Source: Labilibaculum antarcticum
GTDB lineage: Bacteria > Bacteroidota > Bacteroidia > Bacteroidales > Marinifilaceae
Reading direction: 5' to 3'
NCBI RefSeq assembly: GCF_002356295.1
Contig: NZ_AP018042.1
Location: 2,326,361-2,390,360, forward strand
Length of the DNA: 64,000 nt
Positions 4,572 through 31,225 of the stretch are shown in pieces. Both the position numbers and the translations under genes were made by a program. How positions within the stretch are numbered: position 1 is the first letter of the stretch; every line of letters begins with the position of its first letter. Under the pieces are notes generated by a model. The model searched no databases. It saw nothing but the letters and a program-made list of their open reading frames with translations, and was not told where the DNA came from.

Positions 4572-5864
4572 CTACAGACGTTCCTTAATCAACGATCGAA
4601 TTGGATTAAAAATACGTTGCAACAAGCGATAGTCTTCTGTAATTATTTCGGCCTGACCTTCAATTTGCTGTGCAAAATCCAACTCAATACCATAATTGGT
4701 CATTAGGCCGTTTGGAAAATCAACATCCAAACTGTATTTCTGATCTTCAGGTACTTTCGATATGGAGCGAATGGTTCCTTCCAGCATCCCGTATTCAAGA
4801 TAAGGATAATTATCAAGTTTTATATTCACCCTCTGTCCAATTTTGACCTTGCCGGCTCCCTGCACTCCCAATTCAACTCTGGCAATAATTTTAGTAGAGT
4901 CTGAAGGCAATACAGTAAAAACCCTCTCTCCTGTCTTCACATTTTGATTGGAGCTGTAAAAACGATTGAAACTAACCTTTCCATTAATGGGAGTAATTAA
5001 TACATACTTTTGTTCCCAAATGTTGATTTGAGCTTTTAGGTTATCGAAGGATTGAATGAGCAAATTCTGCAATTCCTTTCGCTCATTTTCCTTATTCAAT
5101 TCCAAATCTATAATTTGTTGATCCACTTCAGAAATACTAATCTGAGTAGAAGCCAATGAAGAACGGGTACCCTGAAAAGCATAACTCTGTTCCAAGTATT
5201 TTTTACGGGCATTTTGAAGGTCTGATTGCGAGATTACACCTCGCGTAAATAAGGATGAATCCCGGGTAAACTGCTTTTTTGAAATTGCCAATTCACTTTC
5301 AGAAATTACTTTTTGTTGGTATTGTCGATCGTAGTAAAGGTTGTATTTACTAATTTGATCACGGTAAGAGGCAATTTTTCGATCGTAATAATCCAAATCG
5401 AAAAAACGTTGGTAGTCAACATACGATTTTAAGAAACCATTGTAGTACGATTGTATTTCACCCAAACGAAAATTACCTTCCAATAAATTGGATTTAATGC
5501 CATCAACACCTGTTAGATGTTCATGAAATTCACTCATTTTCGTTTTCAAAACAAAAACATCATCATTAACGGCCGGATTCTCAATAATAGCCAAAAGATC
5601 TCCTTTTTTCACTTCCTGATTATCTGCAACATACAGGTTTTGAATCTGTCCCGACGATCTGGCAACCAATTCGGCAGGTGGATTCAAGGTTGTAAGAACC
5701 AATTTGGACTGTATAATATCCGGATAACGGAAAAACCAACTCCCAATTACCAAAGCAAAAATAACGACAAAGAAAAGAGTTGTTCCACTGCGAATGATCC
5801 AATTGGGCATTCGTTCCAAAATCTCTTTTACTTCATCTGATCGTAATTCTATGTTACTATCCAT
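4572..5864 (-). CDS. HlyD-family periplasmic adaptor of a peptide exporter
   Basis: 430 residues from the ATG at 5864 (a TTG lies one codon upstream). Residues about 28-46 form one transmembrane helix. Next comes a biotinyl-lipoyl-like half-motif (ELVARSSGQIQNLYVADNQE), a long coiled-coil hairpin region (about residues 90-280), the second lipoyl half (VLITPINGKVSFN), and a beta-barrel domain. This is the membrane-fusion protein architecture of type I secretion. The peptidase-containing ABC transporter lies upstream on the same strand, separated only by a four-helix-bundle cassette, so the two very likely form one exporter. A matching TolC is not adjacent; the nearest is at 46.4 kb in an RND operon. 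Confidence 0.88.
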   Translation of the reverse strand: MDSNIELRSDEVKEILERMPNWIIRSGTTLFFVVIFALVIGSWFFRYPDIIQSKLVLTTLNPPAELVARSSGQIQNLYVADNQEVKKGDLLAIIENPAVNDDVFVLKTKMSEFHEHLTGVDGIKSNLLEGNFRLGEIQSYYNGFLKSYVDYQRFFDLDYYDRKIASYRDQISKYNLYYDRQYQQKVISESELAISKKQFTRDSSLFTRGVISQSDLQNARKKYLEQSYAFQGTRSSLASTQISISEVDQQIIDLELNKENERKELQNLLIQSFDNLKAQINIWEQKYVLITPINGKVSFNRFYSSNQNVKTGERVFTVLPSDSTKIIARVELGVQGAGKVKIGQRVNIKLDNYPYLEYGMLEGTIRSISKVPEDQKYSLDVDFPNGLMTNYGIELDFAQQIEGQAEIITEDYRLLQRIFNPIRSLIKERL

Positions 5865-5865
5865 C

Positions 5866-5901
5866 AATTAATAATTAATAATGAGTAATTAATAATTAAA
5901 A
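5866..5901. repeat. Left terminal inverted repeat of the four-helix-bundle cassette
   Basis: An AT-rich segment whose core (AGTAATTAATAATTAAAA) reappears, inverted, at 6294-6326 as the complement of TTTTTAATTATTAATTCCC. The two repeats bracket the small gene at 5922-6287. Simple AT composition makes chance similarity possible, but the order of the shared blocks is the same in both. Confidence 0.4.
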
Positions 5902-6328: not shown

Positions 6329-8557
6329 CTAGTTTCCCAGCTCAAGCTGATTCTTCACCAATTGATAATAGGCTCCCTTTAATTTTGTAAGATTCTCGTG
6401 AGTTCCCTCCTCAACAATTTTTCCCTTATCCAAAACGATAATTTTATCGGCACTTCGAACTGTACTCAATCGATGGGCAACAACAACAACGGTTCTTCCT
6501 TTATTAAATTCATCCAAATTATTCATGATTGCCTTTTCGTTGTTTGCATCCAAGGCATTGGTCGCTTCATCGAAGAACAAAAATTTTGGGTTTTTATAGA
6601 CTGCCCTGGCAATTAAAATCCGTTGCTTTTGCCCCTGACTTAAGCCATGACCGTTGGCACCAATTCTTGTGTTGTACCGCAATGGCAGACTTTCAATGAA
6701 CATATCGATACAGGCAACCTGAACGGCATACAACAATCTCTTTTTATCAATATTCTCAACTCCAACGGCAACGTTTTTAGCGATGGTATCCGAAAAGATA
6801 AAACCATCCTGCATAACCACACCGCAATTCTGCCGCCACATCGATGAACTGTAATTTTCGAGAGTGACTCCACCCAAGGAAATCCTTCCTTTTGTAGTTG
6901 GATAAAATCCCAACATCAGCTTAATTAAAGTAGTTTTTCCGCTACCCGATGCACCAACAATTGCAGTGGTTTTTCCATCTTCTATCTTCAAATTAACATC
7001 ATCGAGAACCATTTCGGAATGTGGACCTTCGTATTGGAAGAATACCTTTTCGATGTCAATGGCCTTTTCTTCGGGAATCTCTGTTAAGCGATCCTCATTT
7101 GGCATTTCTTCCTCCTTCATCTCGTGAATTTCACCCAATCGCTCGAGCGATATTTTAGCATCCTGCCACGAATGAATAAACTGCACCAAATTATCAAGCG
7201 GGGAATTCAATTGACCCAAAATGTACGACACCGCCAACATCATACCCAAAGTCATGCCGCCATCGAGTACCGACTTGGCCGCTAAAAAGGTGATGATGAT
7301 ATTCTTAGTTTCGTTGAAGAAAATGGAACCTGAAACCTGATACTGATTCAAAGCCAGACCTTTGGTTCTCACTTTAAACAATTCAGCTTGTATTTGCTCC
7401 CACTCCCAACGCTTTTGTTTCTCGCAGTTGTTCAGCTTAATTTCCTGCATTCCGGTGATTAACTGCACCAATGAATTCTGATTGTTCGAAAGTTGAGCAA
7501 ATCGTTTTCCATCCAATTCTCGGCGCTTTCGCAGAAAAAGATTCACCCAAATGATATACAAAAGCGATCCAACTACAAAAACAAAAAAGATTTGCATGTC
7601 GTAAATGGCCAAAACAATTCCAAAAATCACCAAGTTAACCATCGAAAACAGGATGCTTAAGGTTGATGATGTGAGGAAATTTTCGATTCGGGTATGATCT
7701 TGTATCCGCTGCAGCAAATCTCCAATCATCTTGATATCGAAAAAGCCAATTGGCAATTTCATTAACTTGATTAGGAAATCGGAGATCAATGAAATATTAA
7801 TTCGGGTTGATATGTGTAAGAGTATCCAGCTTCGAATGAATTCCACAGACATTCGCGAAATGAATAGTACCAATTGGGCAATCAGCACCAAATAGATAAA
7901 ACTCAGGTTCTGCGTATTGATACCTACATCGACAATGGATTGGGTAAGGAATGGAAAAATTAATTGCAGCATACTGCCAAACAACATTCCCAATACCAAC
8001 TGCACCAAAAATTTCTTGTAAGGTCTCAGATATTGAAGCAAAAAAGTAAAACTCTTTTTATGGGAAAGATCCTCGTCGCCCTGAGCGTAAAAATCGGGTG
8101 TGGTTTCAACCAACAAACACAATCCTTTTAGCTCTCCCTGACTTTGTGTACTTGCCCACGACTTAATAAATTCCTCTTTGGTAAATTTCAACAATCCGGA
8201 AGCCGGATCGGCAACATGAACCGTTGTTTTTTTCTTTTTTACCTCTATTTTGTGAACCACCACAAAGTGATTTTGTCCCCAATGGCAAATAGCTGGCAGT
8301 GCAGCGTCGTTTTGGAGCTGCTCGTAGCTGATGCGCACCCCCATGGTTCGCAGGCCAATGCTTTCCGCCGCATCGGCAATGCCCATCATCGAAACTCCTT
8401 CGCGGGTAATGTGCGATTTATCGCGTAAAGATTGAAGGCTGAAATTCTTACCAAAGTGAGCGGCAATCATACGCAGGCAAGTCGGGCCACAATCCATGGC
8501 ATCCAATTGGCGGAAATGGGGGAATTTTTTCTTCAAGGCAGAATGGTAATTAGTCAA
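6329..8557 (-). CDS. Peptidase-containing (C39) ABC transporter for double-glycine peptides
   Basis: 742 residues in the classic PCAT order. The N-terminal C39 peptidase has catalytic Cys23 in MDCGPTCLRM, His97 in NHFVVV and Asp117 in ADPASG. A six-helix transmembrane domain covers about residues 170-460, and an ABC ATPase follows with Walker A GASGSGKTT, signature LSQGQKQR, Walker B FLFFDEA and the H-loop AHRLS. Such proteins cleave leader peptides after Gly-Gly and export the core peptide. No ATG exists between the upstream in-frame stop and the conserved sequence, so the start is TTG, at 8557 or, seven codons later, at 8536. It is the obvious candidate exporter for the Gly-Gly peptides at 20.2-20.95 kb, although the distance makes that an inference. 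Confidence 0.93.
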   Translation of the reverse strand: MTNYHSALKKKFPHFRQLDAMDCGPTCLRMIAAHFGKNFSLQSLRDKSHITREGVSMMGIADAAESIGLRTMGVRISYEQLQNDAALPAICHWGQNHFVVVHKIEVKKKKTTVHVADPASGLLKFTKEEFIKSWASTQSQGELKGLCLLVETTPDFYAQGDEDLSHKKSFTFLLQYLRPYKKFLVQLVLGMLFGSMLQLIFPFLTQSIVDVGINTQNLSFIYLVLIAQLVLFISRMSVEFIRSWILLHISTRINISLISDFLIKLMKLPIGFFDIKMIGDLLQRIQDHTRIENFLTSSTLSILFSMVNLVIFGIVLAIYDMQIFFVFVVGSLLYIIWVNLFLRKRRELDGKRFAQLSNNQNSLVQLITGMQEIKLNNCEKQKRWEWEQIQAELFKVRTKGLALNQYQVSGSIFFNETKNIIITFLAAKSVLDGGMTLGMMLAVSYILGQLNSPLDNLVQFIHSWQDAKISLERLGEIHEMKEEEMPNEDRLTEIPEEKAIDIEKVFFQYEGPHSEMVLDDVNLKIEDGKTTAIVGASGSGKTTLIKLMLGFYPTTKGRISLGGVTLENYSSSMWRQNCGVVMQDGFIFSDTIAKNVAVGVENIDKKRLLYAVQVACIDMFIESLPLRYNTRIGANGHGLSQGQKQRILIARAVYKNPKFLFFDEATNALDANNEKAIMNNLDEFNKGRTVVVVAHRLSTVRSADKIIVLDKGKIVEEGTHENLTKLKGAYYQLVKNQLELGN

Positions 8558-8626
8558 TTTATTATCGTGAAGCTAAAAATAGGGAAAAATGTTGGAACGG
8601 ACTAAACAGTGAATTTATATTAGTCA

Positions 8627-8911
8627 CTAAAATGTAAATTCAAAAAATTTGTTTTTATACTCACCCCGTTTCCGGGGATTATTATTGATATAATTTGCGA
8701 TTCGAAGGTATTCCTGATCATCGCGAATGATGTGATCGTGAAATCGTTCCGGCCATTCAAAATCAGAATCTATTTTTCGCGCCTCTTTTCTTACGGCCGA
8801 TTTATAGGATCGGAGGATGCTAGCCAATGATCCTTTTTTTAGGGGATATGGCCGCCATTTTTTTATTTTTGGAATCCGATCCATCCTTTACAGACGTTGC
8901 ATGCAACGTCT
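8627..8911 (-). pseudogene. Duplicated C-terminal fragment of the neighbouring RAYT transposase
   Basis: The minus-strand reading frame at 8627-8884 repeats the last ~80 codons of the transposase at 8930-9478 (shared blocks KKGSLASILRSYKSAV, KEARKID, FEWPERFHDHIIRD, YINNNPRK) with roughly 90% nucleotide identity. The copy also includes the AGACGTTGCATGCAACGTCT palindrome at its edge (8892-8911). The N-terminal HUH half is absent, so it cannot be an active enzyme. It looks like a ~260-bp tandem duplication that ends at the palindrome. Confidence 0.8.
8892..8911. repeat. 20-bp perfect palindrome (RAYT/REP-associated), copy 1
   Basis: The sequence AGACGTTGCATGCAACGTCT is a perfect 20-bp palindrome. 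An identical copy lies at 9179-9198 inside the transposase reading frame. Such hairpins are the usual recognition sequences of REP-associated tyrosine transposases. Confidence 0.7.
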
Positions 8912-8929
8912 CTATCACGCATTTTGCAA

Positions 8930-9478
8930 TTATTCATTAAATTTATCATCGTCCCATTTCCGGGGATTATTATTGATGTAATTTTCGATTCGGTGGTATT
9001 CCGGCTCATCGCGAATGATGTGATCGTGAAAACGTTCCTGCCATTCAAAATCAGGATCTATTTTTCTCGCTTCTTTTGTTACGGCCGATTTATAGGATCG
9101 GAGGATGCTGGCCAATGATCCTTTTTTAGGGGATATGGCCGCAATTTTTTTATTTTTGGAATCCGATCCATCTAGCACAGACGTTGCATGCAACGTCTCT
9201 TCTGCAATATTCGATATTTCGATAATGCCATGCACATGATTAGGCATCACTACAAAGGCGTGCAATTTTACAAATGGGAAATGATTGGGAATCCCGAACC
9301 AAAATTGATGGGCCAGCTTGCCAATTTCAGATAATTCCATTTTCTGATCAGTAATAGAACCAAAAAACCACTGCCTGTTATGACTACAGATGGTCACGAA
9401 ATAGCTGCCTTCGTTGGAATAATTCCACCACACAGCACGAGCCGAGGGGATTCGGTATTTGTTTTGGAATTTTTTCAT
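8930..9478 (-). CDS. REP-associated tyrosine transposase (RAYT, IS200-like Y1/HUH)
   Basis: 182 residues, the usual length. The N-terminal beta core has GSYFVTICSHNRQWFFG, followed by the HUH metal-binding motif in MPNHVHGIIEI and a candidate catalytic Tyr in SYKSAV. The C-terminal YINNNPRKW is typical of the Bacteroidota subgroup. These enzymes nick single-stranded DNA and move REP-like palindromes. A perfect 20-bp palindrome (9179-9198) is embedded in the coding sequence between the HUH and Tyr halves. A truncated copy of the 3' half lies directly downstream. Intact as read, so possibly functional. Confidence 0.88.
   Translation of the reverse strand: MKKFQNKYRIPSARAVWWNYSNEGSYFVTICSHNRQWFFGSITDQKMELSEIGKLAHQFWFGIPNHFPFVKLHAFVVMPNHVHGIIEISNIAEETLHATSVLDGSDSKNKKIAAISPKKGSLASILRSYKSAVTKEARKIDPDFEWQERFHDHIIRDEPEYHRIENYINNNPRKWDDDKFNE
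9179..9198. repeat. 20-bp perfect palindrome (RAYT/REP-associated), copy 2, inside the transposase gene
   Basis: Identical to 8892-8911. It encodes part of the linker LHATSV in the transposase frame, so the palindrome seems to have been inserted in frame or to be tolerated as a linker. Confidence 0.7.
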
Positions 9479-11143: not shown

Positions 11144-11236
11144 AAAACATCTTGAAAGGTCTGGGAAAGTCGAAGCGTCCAATAGTCGAAAGGTCAAACA
11201 GTCCTTAGTTTTCTAATTAAGGTGTAATTGCAAAAG

Positions 11237-11512
11237 AAAAGCTCATTTATTCTTTTCCCCCTGGCTTTAGACCGGGGATTAATAAAAAAGGAAAACTTGA
11301 AAAGTGGAAGAGTTCAACAATCTAAAGGTCAGACAGTCCGTAGTATTCTATTGAAAAACTCGTTTATTCTTTGCTCCGTGGCTTTAGTCCGGGGATTAAT
11401 AAAAAAAGAAAACTTGAAAAGTCGAAGAGTCCAACAGTCAAAAGGTCAAACAGTCCGCAGCATACTATTGAAAAGCTCATTTATTCTTTGCCCGTGGCTT
11501 TAGCCCGGATTA
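11237..11512. repeat. 117-bp tandem repeat, about 2.4 copies
   Basis: Units start at 11237, 11354 and 11471. Each starts AAAA(G/A)CTC(A/G)TTTATTCTTT and carries TGGCTTTAG followed by CCGGG, then ATTAATAAAAAA, GAAAACTTGAAAAGT and CAGTCCG. The third unit is partial. The units differ by scattered substitutions, so this is not a very recent amplification. Confidence 0.85.
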
Positions 11513-15507: not shown

Positions 15508-15547
15508 GAGGGTTACCTTTTAGTCAATAAGGGAATAAAGGGATAGG
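15508..15547 (+). promoter_or_regulatory. Shared two-block motif (putative ECF promoter) of the sigma gene
   Basis: GGGTTACCTTTT begins at 15510 and GGGAATAAAGGG at 15531. The same two blocks with the same 21-nt offset occur upstream of the peptide array (20094 and 20115). Taking GGTTACC as -35 and AATAAAG as -10 gives a 16-bp spacer, typical of ECF-sigma promoters. This would mean autoregulation by the downstream sigma factor with a very short 5' leader. Alternatively the motif could be an RNA element. Confidence 0.6.
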
Positions 15548-15551
15548 AAAT

Positions 15552-16118
15552 ATGGATTACACTACGGAAGCGATACTTGAGGGAATCAGCATGAGCAATA
15601 ATGATGTATTAAATTACATCTACAGCAAATTCTTCCCAAGTATTCGAAATTATATAGAAAACAATAACGGCAACGAAGAAGATGCAAGAGATCTTTTTCA
15701 AGAGGCCATTATCGTAATCTACCGTAAAATGAAAAAAGAACCGCTGGTTCTGAATTGTAATTTTAAAACTTATATCTATTCTGTTTGCAGACTTTTATGG
15801 TTGAAGCAACTTGAAAAAAGAAAAAATAGCAATGAAATTAGTTCAGAAGCTATTTTGGACAATAGATTGGATGAAGCAACAGAGACCTATGATCAAACCG
15901 AAAGGTATAGGCTGTATCAGAAACACTTCAAACTTCTTGGTCCTGATTGCAAGCAATTGCTTCAATTAACTCTTGAAAAAGTTTCCTTAAAGGAAATATC
16001 CGAAATTATGGGATATAAGAGTGAGAAGTATGCAAAAAAGAAAAAATATCAGTGCAAACAAACATTGATAGAAAGCATTAAAAGTGATAATGAATTTAAA
16101 GAAGTATATGATGGATGA
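15552..16118 (+). CDS. ECF-type RNA polymerase sigma factor (Bacteroidota family)
   Basis: 188 residues. Region 2 is recognisable (VLNYIYSKFFPSIRNYIE, then EEDARDLFQEAIIVIYRKM, about residues 20-60) and region 4 is at the C terminus (LGPDCKQLLQLTLEKVSLKEISEIMGYKSEKYAKKKKYQCKQTL, given here in parts: the helix-turn-helix covers about residues 133-178). The conserved NEEDARDLFQEA is typical of Bacteroidota ECF sigmas. The start at 15552 fits homologues, which begin some 12 residues before VLNYIY. It overlaps or abuts the next gene, an anti-sigma-like protein, so they are cotranscribed. A shared motif links it to the Gly-Gly peptide array 4.6 kb downstream. Confidence 0.88.
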   Translation: MDYTTEAILEGISMSNNDVLNYIYSKFFPSIRNYIENNNGNEEDARDLFQEAIIVIYRKMKKEPLVLNCNFKTYIYSVCRLLWLKQLEKRKNSNEISSEAILDNRLDEATETYDQTERYRLYQKHFKLLGPDCKQLLQLTLEKVSLKEISEIMGYKSEKYAKKKKYQCKQTLIESIKSDNEFKEVYDG

Positions 16119-16860
16119 CATGAATTTTGACCGTATCGAGGATTTTCTTGACGGTGATCTGACAGAAAACCAATTAAAGGAGTTCGAGAAAGACTTACTC
16201 GAAGACTTGGATCTTCAAATGGAGCTTGACCTTCACACGGAGGTTAATGAGGCCATAATAGAACAAGACGTTATGGATCTTAGAAGTAAATTAGAGGCGA
16301 TTGAAACCCCTCACAATCCTGCTGAAAAGCGAAAGCTGAAATTTTTGACTAAGTGGAATATTACAGCGGCATCTCTGGCCTTAGTAATTGGTTTGGGAAG
16401 TTTAATGTATATACTAAACAATCCATCTACTTATTCAAACGATAAAGTTTTTAGCAATTACTATAAGCCTTACAATGTTGTTGTCAACACTCGTTCGTCA
16501 GATGTCATGATTGATAATCTATTGGTAACGGCTTTAAAAAGTTATGAAACTAAAGATTATCGAACTGCATTAACTTTATTCAAGAAAATACTGGATAAAG
16601 ACAGTACGAACATCACCGGTAATTTTTATTCAGGTATCTCGAATATTGAAATTAATGAATATTCAAAAGCGAATAAGAACTTCACCAGAGTGCTAAAGCA
16701 TAAGAATAACCTGTTTATAGAGCAATCTGAATGGTATCTTGGTTTTTGTTACCTCATGACCAATGAGAAAGAAAAAGCTCTTAAGCAATTCCATGTAATT
16801 GCCCAGGGAAATAGTTTCTATAAGACGAAAGCTTTAGAAATAATCAACAGACTGGAATAG
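16108..16860 (+). CDS. Anti-sigma-like membrane protein with periplasmic TPR domain
   Basis: 250 residues if started at the ATG at 16108, preceded by AAAGAAG; 16111 and 16120 are alternatives, and all overlap or abut the sigma stop. The N-terminal ~75 residues (FDRIEDFLDGDLTENQL, then KEFEKDLLEDLDLQMELDLH) match the cytoplasmic sigma-binding region common in Bacteroidota anti-sigma proteins. A single transmembrane helix follows (about 84-103). The rest contains TPR-like helical pairs (ALKSYETKDYRTALTLFKKIL and EWYLGFCYLMTNEKEKALKQF). With N-terminus inside, the TPRs are periplasmic and could sense a peptide or partner protein. Anti-sigma activity is inferred from architecture and gene pairing. 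Confidence 0.75.
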   Translation: MMDDMNFDRIEDFLDGDLTENQLKEFEKDLLEDLDLQMELDLHTEVNEAIIEQDVMDLRSKLEAIETPHNPAEKRKLKFLTKWNITAASLALVIGLGSLMYILNNPSTYSNDKVFSNYYKPYNVVVNTRSSDVMIDNLLVTALKSYETKDYRTALTLFKKILDKDSTNITGNFYSGISNIEINEYSKANKNFTRVLKHKNNLFIEQSEWYLGFCYLMTNEKEKALKQFHVIAQGNSFYKTKALEIINRLE

Positions 16861-17132: not shown

Positions 17133-19976
17133 TTAGGCGACTGATTTACGTCTTAACTTCTTTCGGAATAGTAGTAGAAAAATGATTCCAACAGATCCAA
17201 ATGCAAAATACATTAGTTTATTTACCAGGCTATCATCGTATAATGGATCCACATCACCTAATGTCACATATCCCGACCAAAAATAAGGATGGGATTTTAA
17301 TGAATCGGCAGTTTTTAAATACTCCAATTTTGCTTGACGGAGCGCATCATCTTTGTGCAAGCCTTGAGATAAAAAAGTATAGAAGTTACTCATTAAATTT
17401 GATCCTGTCTTGTCCTCTACAGTCCACAAAGTCATGATTACACTTGGACAGCCGGCATAAAAGAAACCTCGCGCCAAACTCATTACTCCTTCTCCTTTCA
17501 ACAACTTACCATCTCCCGTGTTACATGCACTCAAAACAACCATTCTTGCATTAAAATTCATGTTATAAATTTCATGCGTATTTAAAAGACCGTCTTCAAT
17601 TGTATCTGAATTTTGCGTAAAAACCAATTTGGAATACATCGGATTTTCATCATCAATTATGGTATGCATTGCCAGATGTAATACATCGTAATTACTTGCA
17701 TTTGCTTTAAAATTAGCTTCGGTGGCCAAATCATCAACAAACAAATCTCCATGAATCACATTTGAAATATTATTAACCTCTTCCTTAACACCAGGCAATG
17801 GATATAATTTATCGCGGTAAGATCTTTCAGTAAATAATATTGAATCATTCACACCTTCGTAAGAAGGAGCAAAAGCCAAAACCGATTTGGAAGAAAAAAC
17901 ACCATAACTAGTAGAATGATTTTTAAAACCCAAAGTAGCCGAATTGTGATATGTAATTGTATTCTCTTTTATTAAATATTCCAGGTTTCTATAATTCATT
18001 GTTGTAGAATCGGCTTCCTTAGTTAAAAGAACACCAAACGGAATGTAAGCCATTTTATCATCAGGAACTATAAGAAGATTTTTACCTGAAAGCAGACTAT
18101 CTTTTCCACTCAATAAATACTGATACAATTGATAAGCCGATCTTGTATATCTTTTATAATAATCAGCACTATTATTAGAAAAATCATTCGTTTTTAAACA
18201 ATTACGAACTTCCTCAAGATGATAATCGAATGTATCTTTTACTATTTTTTGTCGCTCTAATTCAAAACTTGATTTGGAAATAATAAACGAAAATAAGGCA
18301 GAATCGGATATGGAATATTCAATAAGCACATCATTATCATCTAATCTACTTTGTAAGTCCTCAATAGTAATGGTTTTGGTATCATACTTTAAGGAATAAT
18401 ACTCCGGATAATCTTCCTCAAAATTCAAAACCATTTGATTGTATTCCTCATTTAAATTGAAAAGTACATTTTGCCATCCACTAATTGAATCACGATTTGG
18501 AGTTTGCTTTCTTTTTTCATCATGAACGAATTCACGGTATTTAGCAATATTCAGTTTTAAATCTCTTTCCTGCTCCTGCAATTCGATAGAAATACCCCCA
18601 AAATTTTTAGCATTTACATCATTCAAGGAAGATAGTAAACTAGCCGACTTTGATCGCTCAGCGTATCGAAAAGCTTTTTCTTTGTACTTTACATCTTTAG
18701 TAAGTTGATACAATTCAACAGCGATTTCGATAGCTTCGGTATACGTATCTTTTTCGTTTTTAGACAAAGCAAATTTGCTCTCTTCGTCCTGATAGGCAAT
18801 TCGAATGTTATCAATTATATCCAAACAAAGATCATAGGTCTGTAAACTGTAATCCAAATCAGGAATACTATTAGTCTTGCTATATAATTCCTGTAAAGTA
18901 TTTGCTTTGGGTTTTAAAATTTCTAAAATGGAAAGCTGCGGATCCAATTCATCCATGCTAGGATTGATATAAACAGTGCTGTTGTTAAAATTATCCGTTT
19001 CAGCAATTAAGGCCTTTTGATAATACTTTAAAGCATTTAAATGATCATTTCTTTTAGAATAATAATCCCCAAAATTCTTCAAGCAATGGGCAGTATCCGG
19101 ATGCTTTCCTCCAAAGTTTTTTACATATACATCATATGCAAGGTTTAGATAAGAAAGAACTTTATCACTATTTCCAATTTGATCCTGAAAAACAGCATAA
19201 TTCAAATAATAATCGCCTAATAAATAGAAATGAAACCCATTTATTTCTTTTACTTCAGAAATACTTTTTTGATAGTAACTATCAGCTTCTTCGTAATTTC
19301 CTAACTTTTTATAACAATTAGCAATAATATTTCTTGTAGTTGAAGTATTTCCTGTTTTTTGCTTTGTTTTTATATTTAATGTTTTCAATAAATACGTCAG
19401 AGCTTCAGAATAGAGTTTCTTTTTATAATATATTACTCCTAGGTTATGATATAATTGCGATTCCCATTTTGAACCATTTACTATATCAATCAGAGATAAT
19501 GATTTCTTATAATAATTTTCCGCCTTAATTAAATCTTCATAATCATTATAAATATTTCCTTTGTTAATGTAAATTGGAATTAATTTATTTGAATTTTGAC
19601 TATACTCAGCAATAGTAAAAATCTCTGCTTCATTATAAAACTCTATAGCCCTTTTTCTATCTCCAACTCGATTCAGTAAAACACCAAAGTTTACGTAAGT
19701 TCTATAAATCAAATTTTTATCAGACAAACCTCCCTTATTAATAGTAAGTATCGCATTCTCGAAAGATTGAATTGAAAAATCAAATTCACCCTTCTTTAAA
19801 AATCCAACCGCTCTATCAAACTGCACTTGCAGTAATGAATCAGGGTTCACTTTTTCAACTGGGAAATGCTTTTCTAAGTCTGAATTAGACTTAGAATTAG
19901 TGCTCCCACTAAAGAGAAAGAGAAGAAAAAGAGGAAAAAGAGGATAAATAAGAATTTTTTTTAGAAAATTTTTCAC
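17133..19976 (-). CDS. Membrane-anchored TPR-CHAT caspase-like protease
   Basis: 947 residues. An N-terminal hydrophobic segment (about 8-25) acts as signal or anchor. At least eight TPR units follow to about residue 350 (for example AIEFYNEAEIF, ALTYLLKTLNIK, ALKYYQKALIAE), then a helical linker. The C-terminal CHAT domain has the caspase-like dyad His771 (HLAMHT) and Cys818 (VVLSACNTGDG). A last transmembrane helix (921-937) is followed by a basic tail, so the protease should face the periplasm. The start codon is GTG at 19976. CHAT proteases elsewhere cleave specific protein partners (separase; Csx29, which acts beside an ECF sigma in type III-E CRISPR systems). Convergent with the sigma/anti-sigma pair and divergent from the Gly-Gly peptide genes. 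Target unknown. Confidence 0.9.
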   Translation of the reverse strand: MKNFLKKILIYPLFPLFLLFLFSGSTNSKSNSDLEKHFPVEKVNPDSLLQVQFDRAVGFLKKGEFDFSIQSFENAILTINKGGLSDKNLIYRTYVNFGVLLNRVGDRKRAIEFYNEAEIFTIAEYSQNSNKLIPIYINKGNIYNDYEDLIKAENYYKKSLSLIDIVNGSKWESQLYHNLGVIYYKKKLYSEALTYLLKTLNIKTKQKTGNTSTTRNIIANCYKKLGNYEEADSYYQKSISEVKEINGFHFYLLGDYYLNYAVFQDQIGNSDKVLSYLNLAYDVYVKNFGGKHPDTAHCLKNFGDYYSKRNDHLNALKYYQKALIAETDNFNNSTVYINPSMDELDPQLSILEILKPKANTLQELYSKTNSIPDLDYSLQTYDLCLDIIDNIRIAYQDEESKFALSKNEKDTYTEAIEIAVELYQLTKDVKYKEKAFRYAERSKSASLLSSLNDVNAKNFGGISIELQEQERDLKLNIAKYREFVHDEKRKQTPNRDSISGWQNVLFNLNEEYNQMVLNFEEDYPEYYSLKYDTKTITIEDLQSRLDDNDVLIEYSISDSALFSFIISKSSFELERQKIVKDTFDYHLEEVRNCLKTNDFSNNSADYYKRYTRSAYQLYQYLLSGKDSLLSGKNLLIVPDDKMAYIPFGVLLTKEADSTTMNYRNLEYLIKENTITYHNSATLGFKNHSTSYGVFSSKSVLAFAPSYEGVNDSILFTERSYRDKLYPLPGVKEEVNNISNVIHGDLFVDDLATEANFKANASNYDVLHLAMHTIIDDENPMYSKLVFTQNSDTIEDGLLNTHEIYNMNFNARMVVLSACNTGDGKLLKGEGVMSLARGFFYAGCPSVIMTLWTVEDKTGSNLMSNFYTFLSQGLHKDDALRQAKLEYLKTADSLKSHPYFWSGYVTLGDVDPLYDDSLVNKLMYFAFGSVGIIFLLLFRKKLRRKSVA

Positions 19977-20045
19977 GCTAGCGTAGAGTTTTATAATATT
20001 CTTATTAACAATTAATTACAAGGAAAACACAGGATTACAGAAGTC

Positions 20046-20053
20046 CAAATATA
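20046..20053 (-). promoter_or_regulatory. -7 promoter element of the TPR-CHAT gene
   Basis: On the minus strand TATATTTG fits the Bacteroidota TAnnTTTG box, about 70 nt upstream of the GTG start. No clear -33 TTG is seen at the usual distance, so support is partial. Confidence 0.4.
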
Positions 20054-20091
20054 GACCTTTTTTTTATTTTTTATTAAAAAAATTCTGTTTT

Positions 20092-20129
20092 CAGGGTTAC
20101 CTTTTTCAAAAAAGGGGAATAAAGGGGTG
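20092..20129 (+). promoter_or_regulatory. Shared two-block motif (putative ECF promoter) of the peptide array
   Basis: GGGTTACCTTTT begins at 20094 and GGGAATAAAGGG at 20115, matching the pair in front of the ECF sigma gene in sequence and in exact spacing. It lies 48 bp before the first peptide ATG. CCTTTT-TCAA-AAAAGG inside the motif could also form a hairpin here; the corresponding pairing is weaker in the other copy, which favours a promoter over an RNA structure. Confidence 0.6.
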
Positions 20130-20176
20130 TAATCAAAAAAACTTAAACAATCCAAATCTAACAAAAACAGATAGTA

Positions 20177-20278
20177 ATGAAAAACTTTGAAATAGTATCC
20201 CAAGAAGAATTACAAAATATCAAAGGTGGTTATAACGAAATGACAGATACATGTACTCTTGATGACTGCATCGTTTAA
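20177..20278 (+). CDS. Double-glycine leader peptide, tandem copy 1
   Basis: 33 residues. The leader MKNFEIVSQEELQNIKGG fits the class II bacteriocin/pheromone consensus exactly (Ser -11, Glu -8, Leu -7, Ile -4, Gly -2, Gly -1), so a C39 peptidase should cleave after Gly18. The predicted core is YNEMTDTCTLDDCIV: 15 residues, net acidic, with no basic residue and two Cys four residues apart that could form a disulfide after export. It is the first of five near-identical genes. The acidic core argues against a typical cationic bacteriocin and is more like a signal or a small modified peptide. No maturation enzyme (radical SAM, lanthipeptide synthetase) is nearby. A putative sigma-dependent promoter lies upstream. 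Confidence 0.85.
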   Translation: MKNFEIVSQEELQNIKGGYNEMTDTCTLDDCIV

Positions 20279-20344
20279 ATAAACTTATTGACCAAATCCA
20301 AATTTCCCAAGTAAACCTAGTATTGACCAATAAGACAAAATAGC

Positions 20345-20446
20345 ATGAAAAATTTTGAAGTAGTATCTCAGGAAGAATTACAAAATATTAAAGGTGGTTA
20401 TAACGAAATGACAGATACATGTACTCTTGATGATTGCATCGTTTAA
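20345..20446 (+). CDS. Double-glycine leader peptide, tandem copy 2
   Basis: Same as copy 1 with Ile6 replaced by Val in the leader (MKNFEVVSQEELQNIKGG); the core is identical. A synonymous GAT replaces GAC before the second Cys codon. It begins 168 bp after copy 1, and the 66-bp spacer is also nearly identical. Confidence 0.85.
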   Translation: MKNFEVVSQEELQNIKGGYNEMTDTCTLDDCIV

Positions 20447-20512
20447 TAACCTATTTTGACCAAATCCAAATTTCCCAAGTAAACCTAGTATTGACCAATA
20501 AGACAAAATAAC

Positions 20513-20614
20513 ATGAAAAATTTTGAAGTAGTATCTCAGGAAGAATTACAAAATATCAAAGGTGGTTATAACGAAATGACAGATACATGTACTCTTGATG
20601 ACTGCATCGTTTAA
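20513..20614 (+). CDS. Double-glycine leader peptide, tandem copy 3
   Basis: Protein identical to copy 2. Starts 168 bp after copy 2, which shows amplification of the whole gene-plus-spacer unit. Confidence 0.85.
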   Translation: MKNFEVVSQEELQNIKGGYNEMTDTCTLDDCIV

Positions 20615-20681
20615 ATAAACTTATTGACCAAATCCAAATTTCCCAAGTAAACCTAGTATTGACCAATAAGACAAAATAGCA

Positions 20682-20783
20682 ATGAAAAATTTTGAAGTAG
20701 TATCTCAGGAAGAATTACAAAATATTAAAGGTGGTTATAACGAAATGACAGATACATGTACTCTTGATGACTGCATCGTTTAA
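20682..20783 (+). CDS. Double-glycine leader peptide, tandem copy 4
   Basis: Protein identical to copies 2 and 3. The preceding spacer has one extra base (AATAGCAATG against AATAACATG), giving a 169-bp step. Confidence 0.85.
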   Translation: MKNFEVVSQEELQNIKGGYNEMTDTCTLDDCIV

Positions 20784-20849
20784 ATAAACTTATTGACCAA
20801 ATCCAAATTTCCCAAGTAAACCTAGTATTGACCAATAAGACAAAATAAC

Positions 20850-20951
20850 ATGAAAAATTTTGAAGTAGTATCTCAGGAAGAATTAAAAAATATCAAAGGT
20901 GGTTATAACGAAATGACAGATACATGTACTCTTGATGACTGCATCGTTTAA
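20850..20951 (+). CDS. Double-glycine leader peptide, tandem copy 5
   Basis: Leader differs by Gln13 to Lys (EELKNIKGG), which leaves all consensus positions intact; the core is again unchanged. The repeat homology stops about 30 bp after its stop codon (near 20982), marking the end of the array. Confidence 0.85.
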   Translation: MKNFEVVSQEELKNIKGGYNEMTDTCTLDDCIV

Positions 20952-21077
20952 ATAAACTTATTGACCAAATCCAAATTTCCCATAAAATATTTTATTCATA
21001 AAATTAGTACGTTTTGTTTTTAGTAGTGTAAAAACATAAAACTAATTGACTCTAATATTAAGACCAAATTCATTTGC

Positions 21078-21941
21078 ATGGAGAAACGTCCTACATATAA
21101 AGAACTGGAACAGTTGCTTGCAGAAGAAAAAGCGAAAACTGCCAAGGCAGAAGAGCTTAAAAATTCTTTTTTGGCAAACATGTCGCACGAAATTCGAACA
21201 CCCATGAATGCAATTATCGGTGCTTCAGAATTATTGCGTGATGATTCCCTTTCTAAAATTGAGCGCAATGAATTTACCTGCATTCTTAATTCCAGCAGTA
21301 AAGAATTATTAGATTTATTCAACCGAATACTTGAACTCTCCCAATTGGAAAGTGGCTCTATGAATTTCCATGAATCGGAACTTTCTATTCACTCTTTGTT
21401 CATTCAATTGTATTCTATATTCGGACAAAACATTAGCGAATCTCAGAAAAATTTAATCCTAAATTTTACTGAAGATGTTCAAGAAATTAAAATATTTACA
21501 GACCTTGACAAATTAACAAAGGTTCTAACATACCTCCTCGAAAATGCAGTTAAATTTACTGATAAAGGAGAAATTGATTTTGGTTGTGCAATTCAGGACA
21601 GAAATAATATTCTTTTCTATGTAAAAGATACTGGTCCTGGGATTAGCGTAGAAGAACAAAAAACAATATTTAAAAAATTCACTCAGGTGGATAATTCCTA
21701 CACTCGAATTTATTCTGGTGCCGGATTAGGTTTAAGTTTATGCAAAGAAATTGTAAATCTTTTAGGTGGCAAATTATTTATTGATTCGCATCTCGGGCAA
21801 GGTTCCATTTTTTACTTTACAATTCCTCTTAAATTTTCGGAATCTAACATTTTACTTAAAGAAAAAATAGAAGCTATTTTAAAGCTTAATATTAACGATA
21901 TATATTCTTTATCTACTATAAAAAAGAATATTGCTATTTAG
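21078..21941 (+). CDS. Soluble sensor histidine kinase without a recognisable input domain
   Basis: 287 residues. A short N-terminal coiled coil (KELEQLLAEEKAKTAKAEEL) leads straight into the HisKA domain with phospho-acceptor His37 (NMSHEIRTPMN), followed by HATPase_c with the N box (ENAVKF), G1 (DTGPGIS) and G2 (GAGLGLS). There is no membrane segment, PAS or receiver domain, and a ~25-residue C-terminal tail follows the kinase core. It is transcribed in the same direction as the Gly-Gly peptide genes and begins 126 bp after the last one. It might respond to the peptides only through another protein. The receiver at 23489-23884 is a possible partner. Confidence 0.85.
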   Translation: MEKRPTYKELEQLLAEEKAKTAKAEELKNSFLANMSHEIRTPMNAIIGASELLRDDSLSKIERNEFTCILNSSSKELLDLFNRILELSQLESGSMNFHESELSIHSLFIQLYSIFGQNISESQKNLILNFTEDVQEIKIFTDLDKLTKVLTYLLENAVKFTDKGEIDFGCAIQDRNNILFYVKDTGPGISVEEQKTIFKKFTQVDNSYTRIYSGAGLGLSLCKEIVNLLGGKLFIDSHLGQGSIFYFTIPLKFSESNILLKEKIEAILKLNINDIYSLSTIKKNIAI

Positions 21942-21960
21942 AAAAATTACTAGGTAATAT

Positions 21961-21991
21961 AAAAGGAGCTTGCTGGTCACAAGCTCCTTTT
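21961..21991. terminator. Bidirectional terminator between the kinase and the 109-residue membrane protein
   Basis: AAAAGGAGCTTG (21961-21972) pairs perfectly with CAAGCTCCTTTT (21980-21991), followed by more Ts. The facing genes end at 21941 and 21993. Confidence 0.9.
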
Positions 21992-21992
21992 T

Positions 21993-22322
21993 TTATTTTG
22001 TTTTAAAAGATATTTCTTTCAGATTAAGTAGGAGATCCAATACGATTGTTAGTATCAATAAATTAAATTTTTGATCCCAGTCGGTAAGAAATCCAAAACA
22101 AGCCACAATCATAAACAAGATATTTGCCAAACGCAGAACATCCATTATCTTGAAAATTTTTACACTGGCATAATTTAGCGTACTAAATCGGTAAACTACG
22201 TTTAAAAGAAGTCCCAGACTTAAAACAGCCAATCCATAAGCTTCCCCTTGCAGTATAAATAATGCGCCAACAATAATTAGTATTGTTGCAACGGTATAAA
22301 CAATTGGTAAAATTTTATTCAT
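21993..22322 (-). CDS. Small integral membrane protein of unknown function
   Basis: 109 residues with four hydrophobic segments (about 7-24, 29-44, 63-80, 86-103) and very few charged residues. No known domain is recognised. It follows ruvB on the same strand with a 12-bp gap, so it is probably in the same transcript. The start at 22322 is the first ATG. Confidence 0.65.
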   Translation of the reverse strand: MNKILPIVYTVATILIIVGALFILQGEAYGLAVLSLGLLLNVVYRFSTLNYASVKIFKIMDVLRLANILFMIVACFGFLTDWDQKFNLLILTIVLDLLLNLKEISFKTK

Positions 22323-23488: not shown

Positions 23489-23884
23489 TTAAAGATTCAG
23501 ACTTTCGAGCATTTTAAACAAATTATCAATTTCAAAAGGTTTTGCGATGTGTCCATTCATGCCATTTTGAAGACACTTTTCTTCATTGGCAATCATGATA
23601 TCTGCTGTTAGGGCAATAATTGGAATGTCTTGTCCATTCACCAAACTACGTATGATTTTCGTCGCTTCTAATCCATCCATTTCCGGCATCATGATATCCA
23701 TCAAGATAAAGTCATATTTGCCTTCTTTGAACTTCTGGATAGCTTCAATTCCATTATTGGCCACATCAAGCAAGTAACCATATCGTCTTAAAGTAAATTT
23801 AACAACGGTTTGATTTAGCTTATTATCCTCAACTAATAAAATGGAATAGTTTTTTTTTTCCCAGCTCATACTCTGTTCATGCAT
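23489..23884 (-). CDS. Stand-alone response-regulator receiver protein
   Basis: 131 residues consisting of one receiver domain: acidic pocket VEDN (18-21), phospho-acceptor Asp63 (LMDIMMPEMDG), Thr in ALTAD and Lys in AKPF. There is no output domain. The sequence style (NKLNQTVVKFTL) is that of receivers found on hybrid histidine kinases, so it may shuttle phosphate for a kinase such as the one at 21078. An internal ATG at residue 6 (MSWEKKNYS) is an alternative start. Confidence 0.87.
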   Translation of the reverse strand: MHEQSMSWEKKNYSILLVEDNKLNQTVVKFTLRRYGYLLDVANNGIEAIQKFKEGKYDFILMDIMMPEMDGLEATKIIRSLVNGQDIPIIALTADIMIANEEKCLQNGMNGHIAKPFEIDNLFKMLESLNL

Positions 23885-28978: not shown

Positions 28979-31225
28979 CTATTCAACAATAGTAGTCCCG
29001 TTATAAGATTTGTTTAAAGCATCTGACAACCAAGTCGGTTTTGCTGTACCAGCACCTGCACCTGTTGCATTAGCACTTTCTGTAATGCTTAATCCAGCAA
29101 CAGCTTTAGTATCGTTACCAGTTCCCATCTCTACAAATTTAACATCGGTAATTGTAATATCACCAGCATTAATTCTTGCAGCAGCGTCAGCATCGCTTGA
29201 AGAAGTGTAAAAATAAGCTTGGCCTTTATCAGCAGCCAATCCACCAATTACAATGTTGGTGATTGTCATCTTTCCAGCTCCTTCTTTCATATAAAATGGT
29301 TTTTCGCCCATTCCATAAACAGTAAGGTTGTTTAAAGTAGCATTAGTCATTGGAGTCGCAGCACCGTTATCACCGTTGTTAGATCCTTCAATACCTGATT
29401 TGGTAGAATTGATAGAGATCCAGTACTCACCGGTTCCATTCCATCCGTCAGCAAAATCGATTCCATCGTCTTCGCTATCAACAGATACCAAGTGAGAAGC
29501 ATTTACTGTTCCACCGAAGAATTCCATTCCGTCATCACCACCTTTAAAAGAGACTACATAATCGATAGTAGTACCAGATCCAACACCGAAAAGAGAAAGA
29601 CCGTTGAATTCTTTGGTATCGGTATATTTATAGCCAGTATATTCTAAACGCAGGTAAGTAAGGCTTCCTGAATTGTCATCAGCAAGATCGCCACCATAAG
29701 TTAAACCGGAAACCTCAGCACCAGCACTTGCATCAGCTTTGTTGGTAGGAGCATATCCACAAATAACCAATCCACCCCAAGCTTCAGCTTCCTGCTTAGC
29801 ACAAGTCATAACAACAGGAGCATCAGCAGTACCATTCACATTAATTTTAGCACCTTGTTCAACTGCAATGTAACGTACATCTGTGTTTTCTGGAGTTACT
29901 TCAGAAGCGATAATAACTGTTCCTGCAGGAATCGTTAAGCTGGCACCATTTTTAACGATTACAGCACCATCTAAAATGTAGATGTTATTTGCATCCAATA
30001 CAAGATCGGTTGTGATATCACCTTTGAAAGATACATTTGCAACTACAGCATCACCAAAAACAGTGGTTGTAGCATCAACAGTATTCAATGCATTTGGCAT
30101 CCAGTCTGGCTTGTTTACGCCATTACCAGCACCATTAGCTTCCACATTTTCGCCAATGGTTAAGCCTGCAACACCTTTGCTTTGACCCGCTTTCATATCT
30201 ACAAAATTTGCGTTGGTAATTACAATATCACCAGCATTAATTCTTGCAGCAGCATCAGCGTCATCCGAAGAAGTATAAAAGAAAGCCTGAGCTTTATCCT
30301 CAATTAAACCACCAATTACGATATTGTTGATGTTCATTTTACCAGCACCTTCTTTCATGTAAAATGGTTTTTCGCCCATTCCATAAACAGTAAGGTTATT
30401 TAAAGTAGCATCAGTCATTGGTGTAGCACCTCCGTTATCACCGTTGTTAGATCCTTCGATACCTGATTTTGCAGAATTGATAGACACCCAGTATTCACCA
30501 GTACCTGACCATCCGTCAGCAAAATCGATACCGTCATCTTCACTGTCAACAGAAACCAGGTGAGAAGCATTAACAGTTCCACCAAAGAACTCCATACCAT
30601 CATCACCACCTTTGAAAGAAACAACATAGTCGATTACAGTTCCAGCACCTACACCGAACAGAGAAAGACCGTTGAATTCTTTTGTATCCGTATATTTATA
30701 GCCAGTGTATTCCAAACGTAAATACTCAACTACACCTGAGTTATCGTTTGGTTTGTCTCCACCATAAGTTAAACCGGAAACTTCAGCACCAGCACTTGCA
30801 TCAGATTTGTTAGTTGGAGCATAACCACAAATAACCAATCCACCCCAAGCTTCACTTTCCTTTTTTACACAGGTCATTACAACCGGAGCAGTAGCAGTAC
30901 CATTCACGTTTATTTTTGCCCCTTGAGCAACAGCAATGTAACGAACATCAGCATCGGCTGCAGTAGTGGCAGTAGCTTCAATTCTTGTTCCAGCTGGAAT
31001 TGTTAAAGTACCACCTGTTTGAACAAGAAAAGCACCTGATAATTTGTAGGTTTTGGTGGCATCCATTGTATAGGTTTCGCCATCTTTAATTTCACCTTTA
31101 AAATCTTCAGAATCGAACATTCCTGTTGGTTCTGGATTTGGAGTTGGTGTTACATCATCGTCATTAGAACAACTTGAGAAGGTAATCGCTGAGATTGCCA
31201 ACATCGCTAACAATAATTTTTTCAT
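28979..31225 (-). CDS. Large outer-membrane lipoprotein with two tandem ~345-residue repeats
   Basis: 748 residues. A lipoprotein signal (MKKLLLAMLAISAITFSSC) is followed by an acidic, Pro-rich linker typical of surface-exposed Bacteroidota lipoproteins (SNDDDVTPTPNPEPT). The rest is two copies of one domain (about 37-385 and 393-735) sharing VRYIAV.QGAKINVNGTA, EAWGGLVICGYAPTNK, YLRLEYTGYKYTD, GGDDGMEFFGGTVNASHL and GIEGSNNGDNG. The pattern suggests a right-handed beta-helix. It lies 40 bp downstream of a TonB-dependent receptor on the same strand and may be its substrate-binding partner in place of SusD. The Asp/Gly-rich SEDDGIDFADGW and GGDDGMEFF could bind metal. Substrate unknown. Confidence 0.85.
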   Translation of the reverse strand: MKKLLLAMLAISAITFSSCSNDDDVTPTPNPEPTGMFDSEDFKGEIKDGETYTMDATKTYKLSGAFLVQTGGTLTIPAGTRIEATATTAADADVRYIAVAQGAKINVNGTATAPVVMTCVKKESEAWGGLVICGYAPTNKSDASAGAEVSGLTYGGDKPNDNSGVVEYLRLEYTGYKYTDTKEFNGLSLFGVGAGTVIDYVVSFKGGDDGMEFFGGTVNASHLVSVDSEDDGIDFADGWSGTGEYWVSINSAKSGIEGSNNGDNGGATPMTDATLNNLTVYGMGEKPFYMKEGAGKMNINNIVIGGLIEDKAQAFFYTSSDDADAAARINAGDIVITNANFVDMKAGQSKGVAGLTIGENVEANGAGNGVNKPDWMPNALNTVDATTTVFGDAVVANVSFKGDITTDLVLDANNIYILDGAVIVKNGASLTIPAGTVIIASEVTPENTDVRYIAVEQGAKINVNGTADAPVVMTCAKQEAEAWGGLVICGYAPTNKADASAGAEVSGLTYGGDLADDNSGSLTYLRLEYTGYKYTDTKEFNGLSLFGVGSGTTIDYVVSFKGGDDGMEFFGGTVNASHLVSVDSEDDGIDFADGWNGTGEYWISINSTKSGIEGSNNGDNGAATPMTNATLNNLTVYGMGEKPFYMKEGAGKMTITNIVIGGLAADKGQAYFYTSSSDADAAARINAGDITITDVKFVEMGTGNDTKAVAGLSITESANATGAGAGTAKPTWLSDALNKSYNGTTIVE

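Follow-up and report, generated by a model that had tools for sequence, protein, structure and literature searches.

Five tandem double-glycine peptide genes beside an ECF/TPR-CHAT unit in Labilibaculum antarcticum: a candidate secreted signal

What is the function of a short peptide that is encoded five times in a row, almost without change? The window analysed here, a stretch of 64,000 nt (2326361-2390360 of the one-contig, complete 5.72-Mb genome of Labilibaculum antarcticum), contains five forward-strand ORFs of 102 bp (33 codons) at 20177..20278, 20345..20446, 20513..20614, 20682..20783 and 20850..20951, with start spacings of 168, 168, 169 and 168 bp. Tandem Repeats Finder reported for 20177-20982 a period of 168 with 4.8 copies, 96% matches and a score of 1503. 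Together with the ORF coordinates, this confirms the arrangement described in an earlier note on this DNA, i.e., near-identical 102-bp ORFs in units of 168-169 bp with an unchanged core. Copy 1 reads MKNFEIVSQEELQNIKGG/YNEMTDTCTLDDCIV (leader/core). The 15-aa cores of the five copies are identical as protein, their sole DNA difference being a synonymous change (GAC to GAT) in copy 2, and the leaders vary exactly where the note placed the variants, at position 6 (I/V) and position 13 (Q/K; Q13K in copy 5). Besides these five copies, no precursor match at E≤10 was obtained in the whole 5.72-Mb genome.

The leader passes the NCBIfam model TIGR01847 (bacteriocin double-glycine (GG) signal; cut-off 15.7 bits) with 19.2 bits for copy 1 and 19.1 bits for another copy, which bears out its suggested suitability for C39 processing. 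The GG leader of the Bacteroidota type is common to the array and to the TIGR04149 precursors of rSAM-modified RiPPs, but membership in that family was rejected at 16.0 (copy 1) and 18.8 bits (copy 5), below the cut-off of 25. A GG-leader scan of the genome returned only the five array ORFs at low E (about 5e-4), followed by two others at 0.76 and 5.4. The sole Peptidase_C39 match in the genome (115 bits, cut-off 22) belongs to an ABC exporter encoded at 6329..8557 on the reverse strand, 11.6 kb from the array. The GG leader, the single genomic C39 and the lack of any other low-E GG leader suggest that this exporter would cut the leader after GG and export the 15-aa core. Its neighbour is a gene for an HlyD-type adaptor (4572..5867, reverse strand; TIGR01843, 102 bits, below the cut-off of 208.65). 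A gene for a 23S rRNA-intervening-sequence-type protein (PF05635; 5922-6287) lies between the two in the window, and just 133 bp separate exporter and HlyD in one relative (L039).

Homologous arrays were found in 20 of the 56 genomes of the family Marinifilaceae, 15 of which (G427-G435, G438-G443) had no precursor search and were covered by the motif search described below, with one positive (G438). When one precursor was searched against 59 genomes (own and relatives), 15 matched strongly and 6 weakly (E>0.05, unused), 21 in all; the total of 20 consists of the 15 strong genomes, three of the Ancylomarina type (G424-G426) and, from Marinifilum, G436 and G437 (equated by motif positions with loci L110 and L109, respectively). 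None of the array matches of this search contains an internal stop, the kind of decay that the earlier note had named as evidence against its reading. Selection for dosage, also proposed there, is no more than possible: copy number ranges from 1 (L125) to 6 across relatives, the counts in several draft genomes being lower bounds because contigs end inside the array. Two 8-residue ECF patterns, searched against named genomes, yielded 19 loci, all in Labilibaculum, Marinifilum, Ancylomarina or other Marinifilaceae, and the array was absent from the fetched stretch in two of them (L119, L120). At the level of the order, a profile of 37 precursors matched, among 393 genomes, the own genome and two leader-only cases (E about 0.006), one of which (in G231) is a GG-leader ORF directly before an anti-sigma homologue.

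To which part of the peptide does conservation point? Twenty arrays, a set that overlaps with the 20 array genomes without being identical to it, gave 80 precursors, or 79 copies with 35 distinct cores once one nested start had been dropped (a cut copy of G008 was excluded); as these copies were chosen as intact ORFs, they cannot show the absence of broken ones. The C-x4-C arrangement emphasized in the earlier note is present in the window copies and in 7 of the 35 distinct cores, but a Cys pair is no constant of the family: of the 79 copies, 27 have no Cys, 26 have one, 20 have two and 6 have three, and the copies with none or one rule out a disulfide as the defining trait. The conserved element of the family is instead the C-terminal [DE][DE]x[IL]V, found in 79/79 cores. 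All 35 distinct cores are 12-15 aa long with a net charge of -2 to -5, in agreement with the description of the core as short and acidic, and none is cationic, unlike what is expected of a class II bacteriocin.

Among type-A copies of the same array, pN/pS was 0.13 for the leader and 0.15 for the core (95 pairs), supporting purifying selection on the array genes. The final copy frequently carries another leader, called type B (12 arrays). Type-A and type-B cores of the same array differ with pN 0.084 and pS 0.82 (41 pairs, which are non-independent, with type B assigned by leader prefix), and the pN between cores of different arrays was 0.296 (A-A), 0.257 (A-B) and 0.148 (B-B). Cores are thus mostly alike inside an array and different between species. 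Since they are alike within a strain despite saturated synonymous sites, selection is favoured over recent copying, on average, and recent gene conversion is unlikely as the sole cause. A strict rule by which the type-B core follows its own array is contradicted in 9 of the 12 arrays, where a type-B match in another species, mostly a close relative, equals or beats the own type-A cores (strictly better in 6). This weakens the argument from species matching. In addition, L. filiforme and L. manganireducens have more than one core among their type-A copies.

The genes around the array provide the next clue. An ECF sigma factor of 188 aa is encoded at 15552..16118 on the forward strand (TIGR02937, 62.4 bits vs a cut-off of 42.9), followed on the same strand at 16120..16860 by a putative membrane anti-sigma factor of 246 aa (start codon uncertain) with one TM segment (81-99) and then a TPR-like part; the anti-sigma role is suggested by position and layout. 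The TPR-CHAT protein (947 aa; 17133..19976, reverse strand; PF12770, 199 bits) comprises an N-terminal hydrophobic stretch (4-22), TPR (about 41-330), CHAT (612-908) and a C-terminal TM segment (917-935), a layout that would place both TPR and CHAT on the periplasmic side. His771 and Cys818, which we take to be its putative catalytic pair, are invariant in 20/20 aligned proteins (the interrupted protein of G007 not being among them), and the Asn at TPR position 6, presumably the residue of the asparagine ladder, is invariant in 5 of 7 repeats in our own repeat register. In the predicted model, the TPR part is of good quality and most of the CHAT core scores below 50; in a Foldseek search, the modelled TPR part resembled LGN, solved with peptide ligands. 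The predicted model of the anti-sigma factor was poor (mean pLDDT 58) and left unused. Two irregular cases of the TPR-CHAT gene were noted: in the one-contig genome G007 (L041, about 6530-9370), it is interrupted, through an error or a real loss, in the presence of an unbroken array and ECF gene, and one Ancylomarina genome (G024:C14:35379-41459, partly in L048) carries a tandem duplication.

A histidine kinase gene (HisKA and HATPase_c; 21078..21941, forward strand) starts 126 bp after the last copy and possibly shares the array transcript; its product has no TM segment by hydropathy and no other recognised domain. The sole terminator-like hairpin found in 19900-22100, at 21961..21991 on the forward strand, is a weak signal (1 vs 0.9 expected). 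A receiver-only response regulator (23489..23884, reverse strand; PF00072, 97 bits), a conserved neighbour by synteny, is a possible partner of the kinase. The order TPR-CHAT, array and kinase gene was held wherever the contig reaches, and at the Ancylomarina loci some outer neighbours, e.g., RuvB, are no longer detected. Between these three, no further gene is kept across loci, such as a dedicated immunity gene, as judged from the adjacent positions. TPR-CHAT (E≤1e-20) is present in 20/20 array genomes (in two pieces in G007) vs 3/36 others, and at least one C39 gene in 20/20 vs 14/36, 15 of the 36 being genomes without precursor search. PADLOC assigned TPR-CHAT, ECF and anti-sigma factor to no known defence system, and kinase and exporter matched models that share general domains.

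If the peptide were bound by the TPR part, this part might be expected to vary with it. Among nine pieces compared, the TPR part of TPR-CHAT was the least conserved, with mean identities of 0.678 in Labilibaculum and 0.648 in Marinifilum; the corresponding values were 0.956 and 0.913 for the TPR-like part of the anti-sigma factor and 0.950 and 0.936 for the ECF factor. Such rapid change would fit a binding surface, but also relaxed constraint. Groove-facing positions as the variable specificity surface found no support in Labilibaculum (p 0.90; 0.33 within helix A), and their excess variability was weak in Marinifilum (0.25; 0.03) and Ancylomarina (0.05; 0.06). Partial Mantel correlations between core and TPR distances, computed on few taxa, were likewise weak (Labilibaculum r 0.40, p 0.047, n 8; Marinifilum r 0.30, p 0.16, n 7). 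In the former genus, two other pieces, the kinase and the TPR-CHAT middle region, did no worse than the TPR part.

A connection between the array and the ECF gene emerged from their upstream regions. The element AATAAAGGG precedes both, and the 32-bp motif GGTTACCTTTT-N9-RRRAATAAAGGG occurs at exactly three sites in the 5.72-Mb genome, compared to none for the reversed pattern. One site (20095..20126, forward strand) lies 50 bp before copy 1 and is the predicted ECF promoter of the array, conserved in relatives; another (15511..15542, forward strand) lies 9 bp before the start codon of the ECF gene, suggesting autoregulation, and the third precedes a gene for a 184-aa lipoprotein-like protein elsewhere in the genome. 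Allowing up to three mismatches added one genomic site. The genome-wide search placed no motif at the C39 exporter gene. Wherever a fetched stretch of a relative includes the start of the ECF gene or that of the first array copy, the motif stands before it with 0-2 mismatches; at one mismatch it was detected in 24/56 family genomes, the reversed control giving 0 in 56/56. Based on these promoter and linkage results, we assign the peptide with good confidence to the predicted ECF regulon.

Besides three array regions, 17 further regions of relatives with extra motif sites were examined. In G002, G006, G007, G016 and G026, such sites precede a C25-type gene with similar N-termini; the G002 copy (L093, 318-3269; 983 aa), the one subjected to a domain search, encodes a gingipain-type peptidase (C25) that carries a propeptide as well as a type 9 secretion tail. 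Other sites precede lipoprotein-like genes that share their N-terminal part and diverge in the C-terminal one. Two such genes are neighbours behind motif-like sites in G007 (L091, 585-4079); the C-terminal part of one has a SprT-like match that is weak and below cut-off, and the design of the pair resembles that of polymorphic secreted proteins. By eye, a drug/metabolite transporter-like gene and small HTH-like genes were found behind further sites, and at L090, L100 and L103 other GG-leader precursors follow the same ECF motif, two of them after small HTH-like genes.

The gene set extends well beyond the family. The anti-sigma profile matches 130 of the 393 genomes of the order, from which 40 loci were fetched, one per genome and mostly from the better-scoring matches, with several on very short contigs omitted. 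TPR-CHAT is present in 36 of the 40, and in most of them ECF and TPR-CHAT lie beside the anti-sigma gene. Scanning 1.2 kb per locus (60 bp only in L154), we found a GG-leader ORF divergent from TPR-CHAT in 16/36 loci by pattern, or 15 after the one in L169 was judged to be chance; the reverse strand gave 3/36 and shuffles led to 1.2 expected. A GG ORF accompanies the exporter homologue wherever one lies in the stretch (12/12 loci), vs 3/24 loci that have none there (Fisher p 3.6e-7). Exporter homologues were recognised here by BLAST similarity to the protein of the window rather than by their C39 domain, and same-genus loci are non-independent. The cores are unrelated in sequence to that of the window; many have an acidic stretch followed by hydrophobic residues, PP occurs, in our reading, in the GG peptides of 12/15 loci, and precursors are arranged in tandem in L139 (four copies) and L136 (two). 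A motif related to that of the window occurs at -36 to -44 of the ECF gene in 19/39 loci of other families vs 0.03 expected from shuffles, a count that is partly tuned because the pattern was written after viewing the ECF upstream stretches. Among the 15 GG loci of other families, it precedes both ECF and peptide gene only in L136; by this pattern neither carries it in the remaining 14, with a partial form before the peptide gene of L150. The gene set is widespread, and a secreted peptide would be its trigger if our reading holds. In four loci of one genus (L137, L138, L144, L150), TPR-CHAT is flanked by two anti-sigma homologues, the second of which has no neighbouring ECF gene and adjoins the GG peptide.

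Taken together, we tentatively read the array, at slightly below even chances, as encoding the secreted signalling peptide, probably an autoinducer, of an autoregulated ECF/TPR-CHAT envelope circuit. Shared regulation and export are the well-supported parts of this reading, and sensing is its conjectural part. In the proposed scheme, the ECF factor would transcribe its own operon and the array, perhaps also the kinase gene, from a common promoter type, a step well supported by the motif. The TPR-CHAT protein, presumably anchored in the membrane and facing out of the cytoplasm, may then bind the mature peptide in extended form in its TPR groove. The acidic EEVD C-terminus is known to dock to TPR domains of Hsp90 co-chaperones; it is this resemblance of the acidic peptide C-terminus, along with the LGN-like TPR fold and the position-6 Asn, from which we infer sensing by TPR-CHAT. 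Binding would switch the CHAT protease, which may act on the membrane TPR anti-sigma factor and so set sigma activity, by analogy with Csx29, Csx30 and CASP-sigma. The net effect would be autoinduction, with species-differing cores resembling pheromone types; more speculatively, the kinase could add a cytoplasmic branch. Against this circuit we count the type-B mismatch, the mixed type-A cores, the TPR variability and weak correlations, the interrupted gene of G007, the motif-less exporter, and the scarcity of the motif in GG loci of other families. A more far-reaching proposal, which we regard as possible yet doubtful, is that of a new Bacteroidota autoinducer type: a C39-exported acidic peptide with the invariant C-terminus would be sensed outside the cytoplasm by the TPR-CHAT (caspase-like) protease, this would set free the ECF factor, and the ECF factor would then drive the amplified peptide genes. 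Versions of unrelated core, some of them amplified separately, would occur in several families.

The same regulation and adjacency would also be expected if the peptide were a feedback inhibitor or pseudosubstrate of TPR-CHAT in the producer's own envelope, with no signal between cells. The invariant acidic C-terminal motif suits this idea, as do the several copies, given stoichiometric inhibition. It would require periplasmic retention, yet the exporter has an HlyD-type neighbour, and species-differing cores are explained more easily by cell-cell specificity; we therefore consider it unlikely. A similarly low probability, below that of a signal, is given to an antimicrobial, i.e., a class II-like bacteriocin whose multiple genes would serve dosage and be activated by the ECF factor. 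The TIGR01847 leader and the C39 exporter are what such a peptide would have, and the C25 peptidase, variable lipoprotein-like genes and other GG peptides behind the motif sites of relatives would suit competition, but the short acidic cores, the retained locus position across the clade, the C-terminal end as the most conserved core part and the lack of a further gene kept between TPR-CHAT, array and kinase argue against it. Finally, that the peptide merely shares promoter type and neighbourhood with ECF/TPR-CHAT, being an exported effector among several and having a target of its own, agrees with the unrelated secreted proteins behind the other motif sites and with the 20/36 order-wide TPR-CHAT loci that have ECF and anti-sigma homologues but no GG ORF by pattern in the scanned stretch, and is nevertheless improbable, because a chance neighbourhood would hardly be maintained with GG ORFs of unrelated cores divergent to TPR-CHAT in several families.

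How does the signalling circuit that we favour relate to known systems? The Gram-positive pheromones ComC and BlpC have a GG leader, a C39 exporter, a kinase gene downstream and cores that differ between strains or species. The window locus shares the GG leader, the C39 exporter, the downstream kinase gene and the species-differing cores, but it departs from them in its several peptide copies, ECF-type promoter and Gram-negative host; moreover, the adjacent kinase, lacking a TM segment, is not a membrane receptor as in ComC/ComD, and the ComC model NF033214 gave 13.8 bits vs a cut-off of 50. Among Bacteroidales, GG-motif precursors and C39 transporters are found in clusters for bacteroidetocins and other GG-motif RiPPs, described in the accessible part of the source as bacteriocin or modified-peptide clusters, with signalling considered for some (PMC10352776). 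The core here differs in being acidic and 12-15 aa long, and the word "sigma" is absent from the available text of that paper.

For the protease branch, the closest parallel is the output branch of Craspase (type III-E CRISPR), which, according to the available sections of its description, consists of the TPR-CHAT protease Csx29, the inhibitor Csx30 and the ECF factor CASP-sigma; the locus itself carries predicted CASP-sigma sites (PMC10028731). Both have a TPR-CHAT protein, here with invariant His771/Cys818, near an ECF factor and an inhibitor candidate, and the Craspase TPR-CHAT chains 7xss_C and 7y8t_B were recovered by Foldseek at E 2.2e-7, ranked 42-43 behind plain TPR proteins. As far as those sections go, the protease there works with an RNA-guided effector, whereas the protein here carries a hydrophobic stretch near its N-terminus and a TM segment near its C-terminus; the inhibitor candidate here is a TPR protein of the membrane, and the role of the RNA trigger would fall to a secreted peptide. 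In the ECF54 group, CHAT proteins also occur in the context and, in the portion of the source at hand, control by proteolysis without anti-sigma factor is discussed (PMC8999054); the ECF gene here likewise adjoins one for a CHAT protein but, unlike in ECF54, has an adjacent anti-sigma candidate. Among open-licence papers (including PMC10352776, PMC10028731, PMC8999054 and PMC12325347), the accessible text describes neither this peptide nor any link between a GG peptide and an ECF/TPR-CHAT unit. If true, the circuit would show the TPR-CHAT/sigma logic of Craspase put to a second use.

Additionally, two repetitive features were observed elsewhere in the window: a tandem repeat of 117 bp with 2.3 copies at 11236-11508, and, at 28979-31225, a gene for a 748-aa protein that by eye consists of two long, very similar halves.
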